Positions 886-37,748 of a DNA stretch of 37,748 nt are shown here, piece after piece. Origin of the DNA: a virus; the IMG/VR virus record IMGVR_UViG_3300020385_000025, positions 1 through 37,748 of that record. One strand, 5' to 3'. The notes under the pieces were generated by a model. It saw only the letters and a program-made list of their open reading frames with translations, was not told the origin of the DNA and made no database searches. The position numbers and the translations under genes are program-made. Position 1 is the first letter of the stretch; each line of letters opens with the position of its first letter.

Positions 886-3375
886 TTAAGTAGGAGCTAA
901 ACTATTATCGTCAAGATAAACTCTATCATCGTACAGTTCTGCAGTGACATTAACTTTATCAACTGATGATGGTTTGATATCCCTTATCAGCACAGCATTA
1001 CACCACTTGTTTGTAATCCCGAACATATATAATGGTGGCTCCATTGATCCATCAAAAACTGGTGTAAAGTCTATGTCACTATCGATTATAACTTCATTGC
1101 TTGATGAGCCAATAGTCGCAGTGTAAGGACCAGATAAAGTACCATCTGGCTTTCTTAGCGCTAATATGTGCGATTGGCCGCTTTGCCACTTTAATATAGC
1201 GTCAACATACACAGAGCGCCCAACTATATACTCAACACGGCCTGTCTGTTCATATCCTGGTATGTCATCAGCTAATGCGCAGTAATCTAAATAACGCGAG
1301 TTTAATGCGTCCATCTCTGTTTTAAAGCTAAAGCTTGTACGGCGATAGCGGCGAGCTCGGCGCTTACGCATGCCAAATTGATATGCTTTATCCCTGCTTG
1401 TAATACCAAACGCTCTTACCTTCTCAGGGTTAACACCTAAGTCACCAGGGAGTAAACACAAGATTGTTTCTGACTTCCATGTAATTGGTGAGAAGTACTC
1501 TACTTCAACCCCGTCATGTTCATCATCATCTATCAGTGTAATGGTACGCTCTAAAAGTCCGATATAGTTATCTGGCTGGTACATATGCTGGAATACAGAA
1601 CGTTGCTGGTCTCGAACAGGAATGATACGCCCATAATCAATAGTTGGTTCTGCAAAGCCAACAGCAAGCACTCGCTTTAATACTTCGAACATGGTGCTTT
1701 CGCTATCGAATACTGCATTAAATTCATCTCCCCTTTCATGCCAAATAGCGTGTAATGCTTCTATAGCCTCTAAACCTATTTTACTATCTGTATGCCCTGC
1801 ACTTTTTATTACGTGGGCAAAAAATGGTGCGATGTCGGTGGTTGGCTTTGGTGCGCTCCATGCGCCATTCTCAAAAACGGGTAATACACGCGTAGCAATA
1901 AGATTAAATTTGTTTTCAGCAGATCCGGCTAAGTTATTCGTACCCCGTATTCTTACTGCAAGGGTTGTAATGCCTTCATAAGTCGTGGCACTTTCAAGCT
2001 CTGCCTTTAAGGCCGTCCAAAATACATCATCATATATACGGGTATCATCATTTGCGGCTGTGCTGCGTTTTACTCTTACTTCAGGGCGTATTTTTTCAGA
2101 TAAACTAATAGGAATGGTTTTGCCTAGTTGGTTGTTCGTTTTACCTGAAAAAGAAATAGCTGGAGCTTGTGTCCACTCAAGTGCGCCTTCGGCTCGATAC
2201 TCAACAATAATGTTTACTGAGCGAGTTAAAAAGTCACCTTCATCATCAAGTTCGCCCAAACCTTGTGGCATAGAAAAATCAAGCCATAACTGATCTGTTA
2301 CTTCACCTTCTGGTACCGCAAAGAATGGGCCGTTAAACTCACCGTCACCACCACCATCTTCGGTGAATACTTTTGCGTTAGTATCATATTGGCTGACGAA
2401 ACCTGTCCACGCTGCATCGGGTTTGTATTGTCCATCTAACTTTTGAACTTTATTACCTTGCACATTTGAGTCTATTATTTCGTAATAGCCTACGTTCTGC
2501 GCATCAACTCCCTCTACTTTTATTATTTCACCAAGCGCAAAGGGCAAAGGTGCTTTATATTTAAAGCGACCCAATTCGGGCTCATACTCTTCTAGAAATG
2601 CGATTATTTCTTTGCCCGCAAAAGTATACGTATAGCCACTACTCCACACGCCGCCCGTACTTTTAACCTTTCCTTTCAGCTCTATACCTGTGCTGCCTGA
2701 CGTTGAACCTACCTCACTTGAAGTAAAAACATTCCGATGGCCTTCATGACCACTTACATCTTCACCGGGGCCAAAAATTTCATAAAACACATCACCTGTG
2801 TAACTTTTAACTGGTGTATTGGCGATAAACACCTCTTCAGGCAATATTTCATACTCACCACTACCTACGCTTAACATTAAATAAAGCCATTGTTCGTTAT
2901 CAATATACTCACGGCGCGGCATGGTTAAGTAATCGGGGTAAATTAAATGGCGACCAGCTGCTTCTGGAATAATACCCATCAAACGAGGTTTGTTACCTTG
3001 AGTGTTTACATCATAAATGCTACTGCCATCTGGCACAGTCGAATTATAATTATCAGGTATTTGGTTAGTCGCATAGATGGCAACACCGATGGCGATAACT
3101 GCAATAACCGCATACGCAATTGTGGCAGGGTCTTTAGACTCAACAACAAATTTTATGTTGTCATTGTGCTTGAACGTGCACGTATCCCATTCACTAGGAA
3201 GTACATGTCTGTTATTTATATTTACACTAAATAGAGGCTGCTCTAGCTCTGCATATGCTGGCACGTTTGCCCTTAACCATGAGTTTACTGTTTGACCAAC
3301 TAGACCAGTGCATGGCTCATACAAACTATCGTCAAGCTTATTTGGGTAAATCTTAATTTCAACCTGTGTACTCAT
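886..3375 (-). CDS. TipJ-like tail tip / host specificity protein
   Basis: 829 residues from the ATG at 3375, chosen because GAGG lies 9 bases upstream; a start at 3390 has no comparable site. The first 80 residues resemble the ubiquitin-fold (MoaD-like) N-terminus of this family and are followed by a hydrophobic stretch (about 90-105, AYAVIAVIAIGVAIYA), as is usual. The rest is tail-hub-like, with segments such as PQGLGELDDEGDFLTRSVNI. In lambda-type and B3/D3112-type siphophages this protein forms the tail tip and contacts the host receptor. It overlaps the NlpC/P60 gene by 17 bp, the conserved order K-like peptidase then J/TipJ. The family call is confident; receptor specificity cannot be read. 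Confidence 0.85.
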   Translation of the reverse strand: MSTQVEIKIYPNKLDDSLYEPCTGLVGQTVNSWLRANVPAYAELEQPLFSVNINNRHVLPSEWDTCTFKHNDNIKFVVESKDPATIAYAVIAVIAIGVAIYATNQIPDNYNSTVPDGSSIYDVNTQGNKPRLMGIIPEAAGRHLIYPDYLTMPRREYIDNEQWLYLMLSVGSGEYEILPEEVFIANTPVKSYTGDVFYEIFGPGEDVSGHEGHRNVFTSSEVGSTSGSTGIELKGKVKSTGGVWSSGYTYTFAGKEIIAFLEEYEPELGRFKYKAPLPFALGEIIKVEGVDAQNVGYYEIIDSNVQGNKVQKLDGQYKPDAAWTGFVSQYDTNAKVFTEDGGGDGEFNGPFFAVPEGEVTDQLWLDFSMPQGLGELDDEGDFLTRSVNIIVEYRAEGALEWTQAPAISFSGKTNNQLGKTIPISLSEKIRPEVRVKRSTAANDDTRIYDDVFWTALKAELESATTYEGITTLAVRIRGTNNLAGSAENKFNLIATRVLPVFENGAWSAPKPTTDIAPFFAHVIKSAGHTDSKIGLEAIEALHAIWHERGDEFNAVFDSESTMFEVLKRVLAVGFAEPTIDYGRIIPVRDQQRSVFQHMYQPDNYIGLLERTITLIDDDEHDGVEVEYFSPITWKSETILCLLPGDLGVNPEKVRAFGITSRDKAYQFGMRKRRARRYRRTSFSFKTEMDALNSRYLDYCALADDIPGYEQTGRVEYIVGRSVYVDAILKWQSGQSHILALRKPDGTLSGPYTATIGSSSNEVIIDSDIDFTPVFDGSMEPPLYMFGITNKWCNAVLIRDIKPSSVDKVNVTAELYDDRVYLDDNSLAPT

Positions 3376-22559: not shown

Positions 22560-23137
22560 ACAAAATCCCAAGAGCAATAAAATGACTCGTTCATTACCGC
22601 TTTTTCAATGCGGTTTTCAAGCTTAAATAGGCGGCGGTGCCAGCCATATAAAAACGTTATTTGGCTAGGATCATTCACTGCAATACGGCTGTATTTGCTG
22701 GCACGGCGGGCAAAGTAATCAACCAGTAAATCTTCTTGGTTGTGGTTAATGGCCGCAGCAAGGGTGCGCGAGCCTAAAATACCATCTACCTTTACGCCCA
22801 GTACTTGCTGTAACAGCATGTTGGCCAGTGGCACGCCGTGGTTTATGGCACCATCACAATGTAAAAAGGCAAGTTCAAGTAAGCCATGCTCAGCCAGTTC
22901 TTTAGCGCGGCTACCGCGCCAAAAGTCACGGTGGTAAATACGCATAGCCTGCGGCCACGTTAAAGTAGGTATATCCACACTCGGGTAAGCGCCTTTGCTA
23001 ATACCAAAGCGAGTACGGCCACCTTTATCGGCACTATGATCAGAGTCGCCTCCTTCTGCCTCATAAATCCAGTCCATGCAAAATAAAAAGGCACGGCTGT
23101 AATGCGGGGTAAGGTCGGCTGGAATAAGTTTTCTCAT
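22556..23137 (-). CDS. GH108 endolysin (N-acetylmuramidase) with peptidoglycan-binding end
   Basis: 193 residues. AEGGDSDHSADKGGRTRFGIS (about 27-47) is the GH108 signature, with the Glu before GG (Glu28) catalytic. LGVKVDGILGSRTLAAI (about 112-128) is the peptidoglycan-binding repeat that completes the family. It cleaves cell-wall glycan at lysis; there is no signal peptide, so a holin is needed. It is the first gene of the late operon, as lys is in Mu. The ATG lacks a Shine-Dalgarno sequence and its AT sits in a 9-bp hairpin stem (23136-23156). Confidence 0.92.
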   Translation of the reverse strand: MRKLIPADLTPHYSRAFLFCMDWIYEAEGGDSDHSADKGGRTRFGISKGAYPSVDIPTLTWPQAMRIYHRDFWRGSRAKELAEHGLLELAFLHCDGAINHGVPLANMLLQQVLGVKVDGILGSRTLAAAINHNQEDLLVDYFARRASKYSRIAVNDPSQITFLYGWHRRLFKLENRIEKAVMNESFYCSWDFV

Positions 23138-23156
23138 AGCGCCAGTGTGGCGCTAT
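23136..23156 (-). promoter_or_regulatory. Hairpin enclosing the lysozyme start codon
   Basis: Arms ATAGCGCCA (23148-23156 on the message) and TGGCGCTAT (23136-23144) pair perfectly around a 3-base loop. The last two stem bases are the AT of the ATG. In a long read-through transcript the start would be closed. If late transcription begins at or inside the first arm, the stem cannot form, the logic known for T4 gene e. The start site is not known, so this is a hypothesis. Confidence 0.6.
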
Positions 23157-23163
23157 TTGCTGG

Positions 23164-23186
23164 GGGGCTAAATTAAAGGGTTTTAG
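23164..23186 (-). promoter_or_regulatory. Late-promoter-like repeat, lysis-gene copy
   Basis: Identical over 23 bases to 15960-15982 and in the same orientation relative to the genes. It ends 27 bp before the lysozyme ATG, so a -10 box in CCCTTTAATTT would start transcription about 25 bp ahead of the ATG. A dyad for an activator lies further upstream (23210-23233). Confidence 0.62.
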
Positions 23187-23209
23187 TAAAAATGGCGGGG
23201 GAATAGAGT

Positions 23210-23337: not shown

Positions 23338-24066
23338 CTAAACTTCTTTGCCTATCCACACAACTTTACCAATAACATTTAATTTGTCTAGCTGGTCTGG
23401 GGCTACGGTTTGTGCTTCATAAAAGGTGTTATCGCTAATTATTTTAACTTCACCGGTGAAGGTGCTTTGTAATCGCTTTACATATAAATGATCATTAATG
23501 CGTATTACATGAATGCCATCGGTTATCCGCTCTATCGGTCTTAAATCAACCAATAACGCATCACTGCTGTTAATCGTAGGCTGCATAGAATCACCTTTAG
23601 CAAACACAATTGCAAGCTGATCCGCTTTTAGTGATTTATCACGTAACCAATCAGTACTAAAAGCAAGACTTCCACGCACTTCTTCACATTCGACATCAGT
23701 GCCATAACCAGCGGAAATATCTATATTGAGTACTTGTATACATTCAAACCCTTCTAAAACCTGATTGTGATAAGCTTTTGAAGGATCATTTCTCAAAATG
23801 TATTGTGCTGTTGATTTATTACCCGCAGTACCATGCTCCGCGGTTCCTTCACCATTAAATAACCAATCTAAAGAAATATTCTTAATTTCAGCCCACTCAA
23901 CAAGCGCAGAATGGGGAATTGTATCCTTTTTTCGCCACTGATAAACATTGCTTCTATCAACTCCTAGCGACTCAGCTATTTTAGAATCAGAACTTAACTG
24001 TGGTTCTAACTCTCGCATTCTGTGAATTATATCATCAATAACTGTTGACAAAATTAGCGACCTCAA
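23338..24066 (-). CDS. CI/LexA-type prophage repressor with S24 peptidase domain
   Basis: 242 residues from the TTG at 24066; an internal TTG at 24051 or an ATG (HRMRELEP) could be the true start. The HTH is at about 25-75 (SKIAESLGVDRSNVYQWRKKDTIP, ending DWLFNGEG). The C-terminal half has the S24 set: Ala119-Gly120 cleavage site in ISAGYG, Ser160 in KGDSMQP and Lys197 in YVKRLQ. The protein should dimerise, keep the early promoter off and cleave itself after RecA activation, so the prophage is probably SOS-inducible. It is transcribed leftward from the shared control region, toward the lysis genes. Confidence 0.92.
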   Translation of the reverse strand: MRSLILSTVIDDIIHRMRELEPQLSSDSKIAESLGVDRSNVYQWRKKDTIPHSALVEWAEIKNISLDWLFNGEGTAEHGTAGNKSTAQYILRNDPSKAYHNQVLEGFECIQVLNIDISAGYGTDVECEEVRGSLAFSTDWLRDKSLKADQLAIVFAKGDSMQPTINSSDALLVDLRPIERITDGIHVIRINDHLYVKRLQSTFTGEVKIISDNTFYEAQTVAPDQLDKLNVIGKVVWIGKEV

Positions 24067-24080
24067 ATATATTTGCTAAT

Positions 24081-24104
24081 ATATTCACATATAGGTGTGA
24101 ATAT
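24081..24104. promoter_or_regulatory. Operator palindrome between repressor and early operon
   Basis: ATATTCACA and TGTGAATAT flank a 6-base spacer, a perfect 24-bp dyad in the 83-bp divergent region. It overlaps the expected start point of the leftward promoter. It is the best candidate for repressor and/or Ner-like binding. Two AATATATT copies (24066-24073, 24078-24085) lie beside it. Confidence 0.7.
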
Positions 24105-24111
24105 AAACATC

Positions 24112-24149: not shown

Positions 24150-24407
24150 ATGCAGCCCTTAGAAATAAAAGCACAGCTAAAAACGAAAGGATATTCGATT
24201 GCTATGATTGCCAGAGCACTCGGCAAATCCCCCACGACTATCTCATCAGTCATTAATCGTTATACAACTTCGGTTGATGTAGCCGAGAAGCTATCAAAGA
24301 TTTTAGATAAGCCACTCATTGAAGTATTTCCCGATGTTGAAACCTATGCCCGCGCTCATTCAAAAGAGCAAAAGCAAGCTGAACTTGAGCAACTACTAGC
24401 AAGCTAA
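24150..24407 (+). CDS. Ner-like / BcepMu gp16-family HTH regulator
   Basis: 85 residues, AGGAG 6 bases upstream. The whole protein is one HTH domain: IKAQLKTKGYSIAMIARALGKSPTTISSVIN, followed by AEKLSKILDKPLIEVFPDV. This is the layout of Mu Ner and of the BcepMu gp16 family. It is the first gene of the early operon, facing the repressor, and should act like Cro/Ner to shut repressor and early transcription. It is a clear paralogue of the C-terminal domain of the next gene; both even end in LLAS. Confidence 0.85.
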   Translation: MQPLEIKAQLKTKGYSIAMIARALGKSPTTISSVINRYTTSVDVAEKLSKILDKPLIEVFPDVETYARAHSKEQKQAELEQLLAS

Positions 24408-24421
24408 TGGAGGATTCTAAA

Positions 24422-25222
24422 ATGATGGGTTTTATTGCAATTTTGAAGAAACTAGAACAGCTAGTCCCCGCAGTAGCGGGCAACGACGCTGAGCTTGCGC
24501 GAGTATTTAATGTAACCAGAACTGCGCCTTCACAATGGAGAAAGCGTGACTGTATCCCATTAAAAAACTTAGTGTCATTCGCGCGTGAATACAAGATTAA
24601 TATCCATTGGTTAATTACGGGCGAAGGGCAAATGAACATAGAGCCATTGAAAACAGCCACCACGCCACTAATAACTGATGAATCTACTTTCACTAGTGAA
24701 TATAAACCATCAATTGAACGTGTTTTCACCGCATTACCAGAGACAAAAAATAGTGATGCAGCTATTGCTCGTGCATTCGATGTAAACAGAACTACTCCCG
24801 CCACATGGCGCAAAAGAAACACATTACCAGCAGAAAATTTAGTAAAACTGGCACTGAAATTTAATATCAATATGAAATGGCTATTCACTGGCAAAGGCGA
24901 TATGTACGAGCATACCAACCATGTTGCACCAGCAGAGCCTGTAAAAGCATTCACCCCAGATGATGTTAAACAAGCCATTAAAGAACAGGGATATACCCTA
25001 TCTATGCTGGCTGAGGCGCTTGATGTAAACCTTGCCACTGTATCTAATGTGATCCTTGGGAATTCTCGTTCACGGCGTATTGCTGAGTCTATCGCTAAAT
25101 TAATTGGCGAGCCGCTTGAGGTGGTGTTTCCTGATGTTGAAGCGTATGCATATTCGCTGTTTTTAACACCAGAGCAACGCACAGAGCGTGTTACAGCACT
25201 TAAACAGTTACTCGCCTCATAA
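24422..25222 (+). CDS. Regulator with three HTH domains (two CI-type plus one Ner-type)
   Basis: 266 residues from the ATG at 24422, chosen for GGAGG 8 bases upstream; an ATG at 24407 overlapping the previous stop lacks a site. Domain 1 (about 5-70) has ELARVFNVTRTAPSQWRKRD and ends NIHWLITGEGQM. Domain 2 (about 95-160) has AIARAFDVNRTTPATWRKRN and ends NMKWLFTGKGDM. Domain 3 (about 175-266) has EQGYTLSMLAEALDVNLATVSNVI and ends like the Ner-like protein upstream. Domains 1 and 2 also resemble the HTH of the phage repressor, but there is no peptidase domain. It could bind several operator half-sites as a single chain, competing with both repressor and Ner. I know of no characterised protein of this make-up. 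Confidence 0.85.
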   Translation: MMGFIAILKKLEQLVPAVAGNDAELARVFNVTRTAPSQWRKRDCIPLKNLVSFAREYKINIHWLITGEGQMNIEPLKTATTPLITDESTFTSEYKPSIERVFTALPETKNSDAAIARAFDVNRTTPATWRKRNTLPAENLVKLALKFNINMKWLFTGKGDMYEHTNHVAPAEPVKAFTPDDVKQAIKEQGYTLSMLAEALDVNLATVSNVILGNSRSRRIAESIAKLIGEPLEVVFPDVEAYAYSLFLTPEQRTERVTALKQLLAS

Positions 25223-25278
25223 GGCCTAAGTAACCAATTAATCACTAAGTCAACCATCGAACCAACAGGATCACTATT

Positions 25279-25650
25279 ATGACTAAAATGCGCTCGCCGC
25301 TGCTCACACAACCACATCAAGGTCAGCAACTGATTGCTGCGTTGCTTGTACAGTGTGCGCACAGCAATACGCCGCTGCATATACCGCTTGCGGCTCAAGT
25401 CAATAATCAACTGTTTAAGTGCCACAGCACTGCACAAAGTAAAGGGGGTGTGTTGAATGGCTTTATCGTCTATGCACAGCCAAACCAATATATTGTTTAC
25501 GGTGTATGTTTGCATGTTACGCCCTTGGGTGTTGGTGTTATATCCAGCGTAGCGCTATGCAATGTACAAAGTGAAGTTCCAAAAATTGTTTGTTTTTGGA
25601 ATGCCATTTTAGCTATTTTTTGCTTGCCAAAAGGAGCGACTTATGACTAA
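25279..25650 (+). CDS. Unknown early protein
   Basis: 123 residues; AGGATC lies 9 bases upstream of the ATG. It is rich in Gln, His, Leu and Val, with HIPLAAQVNNQLFKCH in the middle, and has no motif I recognise. Its end overlaps the start of the next gene by 8 bp, and the operon layout supports it. A long reading frame exists on the other strand over the first half, so I am only moderately sure it is coding. Confidence 0.5.
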   Translation: MTKMRSPLLTQPHQGQQLIAALLVQCAHSNTPLHIPLAAQVNNQLFKCHSTAQSKGGVLNGFIVYAQPNQYIVYGVCLHVTPLGVGVISSVALCNVQSEVPKIVCFWNAILAIFCLPKGATYD

Positions 25651-26137
25651 GCCAAAACGCCGTCAGTGGGGTCGTATTGTTGCCCGTAGCCTGCCCGAAG
25701 CACTCCAACTATGTAAAGAACACGCCCAAGCAACGCGCCAAATGAGTGTGCCGCGCATCGCCGACAGAACAGGTATTAGCACCGATATGCTGTACAAGCA
25801 TTTAGGCAGCGGCGATATGCCCACCAGTTTACTTATTCCGTACATGGCAGCAACAGGGCGCGAATACCCGTTAATGTACATGGCACACAGCCTAGACAAA
25901 CTTATTGTTGATATGCCCAAAGGTAAAAAACCAAGTAACAGCAACCTTACCCATTTAAACCTATTTGCTAACCAAGTGATCGGTATGGTTATGCAGTTAG
26001 AAGAAGGCGCAGGCAATGCCCAATATGTGGCAGAGCAAATAATTTTGTTAATGCAACAACTGGCTTATCAAAAGCTCGAAGCCGAAAAGCTTGACGAACC
26101 CCAAGCCTGTTTTGACCTAATCCACGAACCCCATTAG
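25643..26137 (+). CDS. HTH early regulator (CII-like appearance)
   Basis: 164 residues with AAGGAG upstream. A HTH lies at about 34-60 (MSVPRIADRTGISTDMLYKHLGSGDMP), preceded by a basic N-terminus (KPKRRQWGRI) and followed by a helical C-terminus suited to oligomerisation. The look is that of phage CII-type or related regulators in early operons. Target unknown. Confidence 0.7.
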   Translation: MTKPKRRQWGRIVARSLPEALQLCKEHAQATRQMSVPRIADRTGISTDMLYKHLGSGDMPTSLLIPYMAATGREYPLMYMAHSLDKLIVDMPKGKKPSNSNLTHLNLFANQVIGMVMQLEEGAGNAQYVAEQIILLMQQLAYQKLEAEKLDEPQACFDLIHEPH

Positions 26138-26152
26138 TTAAGAGCAAAAGCC

Positions 26153-26275
26153 ATGAAGCCTGCCCCTATCAAAGACCAAGAACCGCCTAAATTTCGCCCA
26201 AGTAGCACTAAAACGGTGTTTTTGATGACTATGGCGCAGTTAAAAGCAATGGCTAATAAGGAATACAAAGCATGA
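26153..26275 (+). CDS. 40-residue protein, unknown
   Basis: Reads MKPAPIKDQEPPKFRPSSTK and ends AMANKEYKA. Its stop overlaps the next ATG (ATGA), and AAGAG lies 8 bases upstream, so it fills the gap between two operon genes exactly. Pro-rich start, helical end. Function unknown. Confidence 0.6.
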   Translation: MKPAPIKDQEPPKFRPSSTKTVFLMTMAQLKAMANKEYKA

Positions 26276-26517
26276 AATTACTAACTCAAAAAATCACTAC
26301 AGCGCAGCTCAAGATTGAATCACCAAAAATCACTCTACAGTGCAACTGCTGCAAACGTGTAGAGCACGGCACCATACCAGTCAACGCATTTATTGATGCC
26401 GCCAGTTATATGGGCTGGCGACACGTTACAACGAGCCACATTGAAATAGAGGCAGCATGCCCTAGCTGCGTTAGAGAACTGCAACAGTTCTACCAAAGCA
26501 AGCAGGCTTCAGCATGA
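26272..26517 (+). CDS. Small Cys-rich (zinc-ribbon-like) protein
   Basis: 81 residues. CNCC near residue 24 and CPSC near residue 64 could hold one zinc. Between them FIDAASYMGWRHV is probably a short helix and strand. It is joined by ATGA overlaps to both neighbours. Small zinc-ribbon proteins are frequent in Mu-like early operons, with no known function. Confidence 0.7.
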   Translation: MKLLTQKITTAQLKIESPKITLQCNCCKRVEHGTIPVNAFIDAASYMGWRHVTTSHIEIEAACPSCVRELQQFYQSKQASA

Positions 26518-26822
26518 GCGATCAATATATTTCATCCACCATGCAGCGCGGCCTAAACGCCATTAAAGCACTGAGCGGCTATGAAGCCGATGGTCTGCGC
26601 CCTGGCGAATTGGCTAAGCGTTTAAACATCACCCAATCACAGGCTACCGCAGTTATTAAAAATCTGATCCAAGCAGGCTTTGCCGAGCATTGCCCGTGGG
26701 ATCAAAACAAAGTGCGCTTAGGACCAGCCCTAATCACCTTAGCCAATAGCGCCCAGCTGGCGATTACCCAGCGCAGCCAGCAACTAGAACAAGACCGTAG
26801 AAATTATGGAGCAATAGTATGA
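26514..26822 (+). CDS. IclR/MarR-type winged-helix protein
   Basis: 102 residues. About residues 10-70 form a winged helix: RGLNAIKALSGYEADGL, then PGELAKRLNITQSQATAVIKNLIQAGFAEH and the wing NKVRLGPALIT. This is the DNA-binding half of IclR proteins without the effector domain. Similar genes lie ahead of transposase A in several Mu-like phages. Starts and ends with ATGA overlaps. Confidence 0.8.
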   Translation: MSDQYISSTMQRGLNAIKALSGYEADGLRPGELAKRLNITQSQATAVIKNLIQAGFAEHCPWDQNKVRLGPALITLANSAQLAITQRSQQLEQDRRNYGAIV

Positions 26823-37681: not shown

Positions 37682-37748
37682 GAGCCTGGTAATGTCCTAC
37701 TTTCACATAGCAAATGCTACACTATCATCGGCGCTGTTTCGTTTCACT
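37682..37748 (-). rRNA. rrf: 5S rRNA, 3' part (truncated by window edge)
   Basis: The minus strand reads AGTGAAACGAAACAGCGCCG, then GATGATAGTGTAG, and ends AGTAGGACATTACCAGGCTC, matching the 3' half of gammaproteobacterial 5S rRNA. About 67 of roughly 120 bases are present; the 5' part lies beyond the window. The exact 3' base is uncertain by one or two. Confidence 0.93.

Follow-up and report, generated by a model that had tools for sequence, protein, structure and literature searches.

Tandem helix-turn-helix (HTH) domains of the CI type are known from the repressors of P2-like phages. The CI proteins of PSP3 (286 amino acids) and Klebsiella phage RCIP0057 (280 amino acids) each carry two Phage_CI_repr domains per chain and end in a Phage_CI_C domain. 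In phage TP901-1, the regulator MOR binds the N-terminal domain of CI (CI-NTD) on a composite operator (PMC7250872). The Wolbachia prophage protein Wmk has two XRE-type HTHs per chain, which its authors suggest act as physically connected dimers (PMC6736233). We identified a gene, here termed TRI, that carries two Phage_CI_repr domains as the P2-like repressors do, but ends in a Ner-type HTH rather than in Phage_CI_C. The gene encodes 266 amino acids and occupies positions 24422..25222 on the plus strand of IMG/VR virus record IMGVR_UViG_3300020385_000025, a Mu-like prophage whose 37,748 nucleotides are called the window below.

The open frame of TRI comprises 801 bp, starts at ATG 24422 or 24425, and ends with the stop at 25222. 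A GGAGG Shine-Dalgarno sequence lies 8 nucleotides upstream of ATG 24422 (duplex -9.3 kcal/mol), and an alternative ATG at 24407 has almost no such pairing (-1.9). Ribosome sites at internal starts are weak or badly spaced; the best reaches -4.9 at 25004, inside the third domain, and the start just before this domain, at 24902, reaches -4.2. Because of these weak sites separate proteins from internal starts are unlikely, and TRI is probably made as one chain. The initial annotation had proposed a single chain with three HTHs at 24422-25222, and the intact frame, the Pfam domains and the structure model bear this out: no domain scored as non-HTH in Pfam, and no convincing internal start was found.

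Two matches to Phage_CI_repr (PF07022) cover the N-terminal part of TRI, together scoring 82.9 bits against a cut-off of 22. Scored alone, the two halves of the pair reach 38.5 and 44.8 bits against the same cut-off. The first match (residues 21-71, E 1.5e-9) lies in domain D1 (residues 1-74, 24422..24643) and the second (residues 110-162, E 1.6e-11 as a fragment) in D2 (residues 92-163, 24695..24910). Within D3 (residues 177-266, 24950..25219), residues 178-238 match HTH_3 (33.8 bits, cut-off 23) and HTH_35 (31.2 bits, cut-off 25). The order CI-like, CI-like, Ner-like was thus read correctly from the outset, with all three domains above Pfam cut-offs. The description of D3 as similar to both Ner and BcepMu gp16 is apt for Ner and HTH_35; however, the gp16 model TIGR04111 gives 22.1 bits for TRI and 23.9 for D3 alone, below its cut-off of 34, and D3 is therefore only weakly gp16-like.

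An AlphaFold2 model of TRI, computed from an alignment of relatives, contains three compact five-helix units with well-formed HTH cores (mean pLDDT 82) and predicted disordered or flexible linkers at residues 75-91 and 165-170, with the mutual placement of the domains left undefined by a pTM of 0.37. A combined alignment was left out of the folding because it placed repressor HTHs on D3. Foldseek matches of the model in BFVD are phage repressors and HTH proteins (best E 8e-6). Those in the PDB are HTH domains with E of at least 0.1, among them 186 CI and Mu Ner (1neq), which matches an HTH unit of TRI in fold with a probability of 0.98 and a TM-score of 0.70 by target; searching with the full chain returns mainly single-domain matches at E of about 1.

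TRI lies beside a phage switch. The divergent repressor gene, REP (23338..24066, minus strand), encodes a Phage_CI_repr HTH and an S24 peptidase domain. A predicted early promoter (TTGACA-17-TATATT, 24045..24073, plus strand) agrees with the consensus at 11 of 12 positions, and its -35 element is common to relatives. It is followed by an operator palindrome with perfect 10-nucleotide arms (TATATTCACA-N6-TGTGAATATA, 24080..24105), by NER, which encodes a stand-alone Ner-like protein of 85 amino acids recognised by Pfam and PHROG (24150..24407, plus strand), and, after a gap of 14 bases, by TRI. NER is intact and complete. The promoter boxes and the short gap suit a single transcript, and we infer that NER and TRI are co-transcribed; with a near-consensus promoter and an operator ahead of both genes, TRI should be off in lysogens and on early in lytic growth. 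Exact peptides of REP and NER retrieved no close relatives of either protein from viral contigs.

In four relatives (L010, L013, L065 and L160) the -35 (TTGACA) and a TATACT-like -10 flank the operator palindrome upstream of ner; the palindrome varies in sequence with immunity type while the promoter boxes remain constant. Within TRI, the joint between D1 and D2 at 24695-24711 contains GTGAATATAAACCATCA, a 17-nucleotide near-copy of the right operator half GTGAATATAAACATCA; 6 of 500 codon shuffles score equally high.

This arrangement sets TRI apart from a CI immunity repressor. Pfam finds neither Phage_CI_C nor Peptidase_S24 in TRI, both of which types occur among the repressors compared with it, and no other known oligomerisation domain accompanies its DNA-binding domains. 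Nor is TRI divergently coded: it lies on the plus strand behind NER, and REP is the divergent gene. TRI resembles a Ner-like early regulator in its HTH_35 and HTH_3 matches and in its place at the start of the early operon beside a divergent repressor, but at 266 residues with two further HTHs it is not a small single-domain protein.

The origin of D3 is apparent from relatives gathered by their transposase. L007, L008, L010 and L013 have a single stand-alone Ner of 90 amino acids at the place of TRI, and no tri-HTH gene. The downstream genes are the same, with the CII-like protein 82-95% identical. In L010, L013 and L007 this Ner has one HTH, its own start codon and leader and no CI domains, and it is 54-59% identical to D3 (57% for L010), whereas D3 and the neighbouring NER of the window are about 38-39% identical. 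An unbroken DNA match of 75% to L010 and L007 extends from 24966 to 26822. A further match to L010 covers 22605-23191, with none between 23192 and 24965. Blastn homology to L010 and L013 stops at 23191 and, for L010, L007 and L013, restarts at 24966, which corresponds to codon 6 of the ancestral ner; the ancestral ATG aligns to TTC at 24950, and the ner leader of the relatives is missing from the window in the alignment.

The segment 23192..24965 (about 1.77 kb), which contains the repressor, promoter and operator, NER and D1-D2, is thus unshared with the closest relatives. Its left edge falls in an intergenic stretch and its right end within the ner frame. Its GC content is 0.384, against 0.438 for the phage, a value as low as in only 4 of 349 stretches of the same size. 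From these comparisons it is likely that the immunity cassette was exchanged and that the right end of the incoming one was joined in frame to the resident ner; which way the exchange went is our inference. Such exchange does occur in the group, since L014 has a transposase 99.8% identical yet a different immunity region.

D1 and D2 also point away from the local switch. Their mutual identity is about 35%; against the HTH of REP it is 30-31% over the aligned domain, or 36-42% in local alignments. A tree built from 61 CI-type HTHs places D1 and D2 in a single clade, supported at 99/91, together with the L057 and L082 repressors, from two Mu-like phages whose loci have the repressor-ner layout; REP and the P2-like tandem repressors fall outside it, although the 75-column alignment is too short to order the finer branches. 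The HTH pairs of the P2-like repressors form a separate clade, and a shared origin of the two tandem arrangements, which we considered, is unsupported by the tree. The recognition helices of D1 and D2 (VTRTAPSQWRKR and VNRTTPATWRKR) are unlike that of REP (VDRSNVYQWRKK). Both keep a W-R-K-R motif, and RTTPATWR in the D2 helix is common to the L082 repressor. Local duplication as the source of D3 or of D1 and D2 is rejected by the identities, the DNA comparison and the tree. The initial annotation held that TRI was built from the parts of its own switch, which these results do not support: D3 is the resident ner, and D1 and D2 have their affinities with the repressors of other Mu-like phages. 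Its observation that all three domains have relatives next door stands at the level of families, but those relatives are only 36-42% identical to D1 and D2 and about 38% identical to D3.

In its C-terminal part, the L057 repressor shares 42% identity with REP. The incoming cassette may therefore descend from an L057-like one, with its repressor HTH type surviving in TRI, a speculation drawn from the two sequence likenesses. In the ner-containing loci that were compared, the CI-type HTH gene is on the opposite strand, bar one weak pair in L128. That we found no donor phage in which a tandem CI-HTH gene follows ner counts against the cassette explanation.

The fusion appears in one record only, and this too counts against that explanation. 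Searches by protein and by motif across phage records, plasmids and viral contigs returned no second CI-CI-Ner protein. One scan of genome contigs gave none either, nor did genome samples at three ranks (399 from the family, 369 from the class, 109 from a single genus), and no D1-D2 pair with a Ner domain turned up among 395 genomes from the order. A distant Ner alignment was too diverse to serve as a search query. All inspected matches were stand-alone Ners, single-HTH repressors or tandem repressors lacking Ner. The search for the same fusion elsewhere, which the initial annotation had proposed, thus yielded no second copy; since the collections may omit records that lie very close to the window, the apparent rarity of the fusion may be overstated. 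Tandem CI-type HTHs without Ner occur in the P2-like repressors and in one phage, L097, that has a transposase-like gene close by. In L097, a protein of 196 amino acids with two tandem CI-type HTHs is encoded at 2779-3369, and the transposase-like gene has 744 codons.

The dN/dS of D3 is about 0.2 against the closest relatives and about 0.2-0.4 against stand-alone Ners, comparable to the 0.1-0.2 among the Ners themselves. With dS near saturation and a divergence that may for the most part predate the fusion, these ratios show only that D3 is free of visible decay; they mostly average the time before the fusion and do not prove that the fused protein is used.

Several other features of the region deserve mention. 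A conserved gene (25204..25515, minus strand) runs against the early operon between ner and the CII-like gene and encodes the antisense protein MQTYTVNNILVWLCIDDK...WLLRPYEASNC. Its frame is conserved in over 20 loci with a dN/dS of 0.2-0.3 among the closest, and no PHROG family matches the protein at E below 0.05. Its C-terminus overlaps the 3' end of TRI and of ner, which would explain the conserved LLAS-stop end of ner. In the window, the antisense frame is free of stops until 24316. An overlapping plus-strand frame of 123 codons (25279-25650) has a dN/dS of about 1 and is probably not a gene. The 5' leader of ner contains a hairpin in L010 (4175-4222), L013, L052, L065, L150 and L154-L159, with complementary arms that vary around a conserved core, (T)CGCCAAA and (GTT)CGCCAAAAC. 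Ten of 11 ner leaders of relatives fold at a z-score of -3 or lower against mononucleotide shuffles. The hairpin has been lost from the window and is absent from the leader of its own NER. No Rfam family was found in the searched regions of the relatives, including the ner leader, or in the last 1.7 kb of the window. By eye, positions 37690-37748 resemble the end of a 5S rRNA gene on the minus strand, with no Rfam match at the cut-off; this resemblance suggests that the record includes host flank.

We favour, with moderate confidence, the explanation that cassette replacement created TRI and that TRI now serves as an early regulator of the Ner/Cro kind, D1-D2 forming a pseudo-dimer. The resident cassette would have given way to a foreign one that brought a repressor, an early promoter with its operator, a ner gene of its own and a tandem CI-HTH gene. 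The right end of this newcomer would have met the opening codons of the resident ner in frame, turning the old Ner into a third domain. As the second gene on the predicted early transcript, TRI would be kept silent by the repressor in lysogens and would appear together with Ner upon induction. D1-D2 would sit as a covalent pseudo-dimer on a CI-type palindrome, D3 would add a Ner-type contact, and TRI would down-regulate promoters in the switch region. The computed support consists of the domain make-up, the gene position, the replaced segment and the affinity of each domain; DNA binding, targets and regulatory effect are predicted from these. It is uncertain whether TRI binds the local operators, since D1, D2 and D3 carry recognition helices unlike those in REP and in the neighbouring Ner.

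The strongest alternative, itself on the unlikely side, is that TRI is a by-product, the scar of a recent cassette exchange in which one part or nothing works, NER regulates and TRI is a passenger. The confinement of the fusion to this phage across all searches, the intact and complete NER next door and the lack of a known functional target for D1 and D2 would agree with this. Weighing against a passenger are three intact HTH cores above family cut-offs, an open 801-bp frame with a strong ribosome site, and the retention of the W-R-K-R motif in both CI domains. The initial annotation had suggested an antirepressor; it is unlikely that TRI is instead such an antirepressor or a competitor, promoting lytic growth through contact with the repressor or its displacement, by analogy with MOR of TP901-1. 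TRI does unite in one chain the domain types of the CI-NTD:MOR complex (PMC7250872), is probably made from the early promoter and has no S24 domain such as that of the repressor. However, MOR is a separate protein, and the HTHs of D1 and D2 are distant from that of REP and have different recognition helices, so the targets of TRI may lie elsewhere, which lowers confidence in an antirepressor role.

A further reading is interference with related prophages, in which D1-D2 and D3 would recognise the operators of other Mu-like phages and not those of their own. Every domain of TRI is nearest to regulators of other phages (the L057 and L082 repressors and the L010-type Ner), and RTTPATWR in D2 recurs in L082. 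Nevertheless we regard this as improbable, for lysogens, in which interference would be of use, are expected to have TRI switched off. A chimeric assembly of two phages joined at about 24950-24966 might account for the fusion being in one record only, but is very improbable given a joint in frame at the resident ner start and an intergenic left edge, as in biological exchange. Bridging of the two phage ends by TRI, a role raised in the initial annotation, is scarcely credible even though several DNA-binding heads per chain could hold two sites, because the only exact copy of the operator in the window is at 24084-24101, near-matches are fewer than the shuffled mean, copies at the phage ends do not exceed chance, and relatives with the same transposase family have no such protein.

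On the explanation that we prefer, TRI seems to be a new multi-domain regulator seen close to its origin. The edges of the immunity-cassette swap can be mapped to within a few codons, and the fused gene came into being at one of them. If the fusion works, it illustrates how recombination supplies phage switches with composite regulators.

In agreement with the initial annotation, we found no described counterpart of the three-domain protein: tandem CI-HTH repressors were already known from PSP3, and the CI-CI-Ner combination was found only here. Unlike TRI, PSP3 CI is annotated as the immunity repressor itself. Mu Ner holds an analogous early-operon position but is a single domain. Wmk differs in having two domains of the same kind, no Ner domain and a role proposed in the insect host. 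The nearest described behaviour is that of the CI-NTD:MOR complex of TP901-1, in which CI-NTD and a second small DNA-binding regulator are two separate proteins, whereas TRI is one fused chain. A bolder and unlikely reading sees in TRI a natural single-chain counterpart to complexes of the CI:Cro type, with a covalent pseudo-dimer and a Ner head that would act together on a composite operator to set the lytic decision and that would have been united in one step by immunity-cassette exchange.
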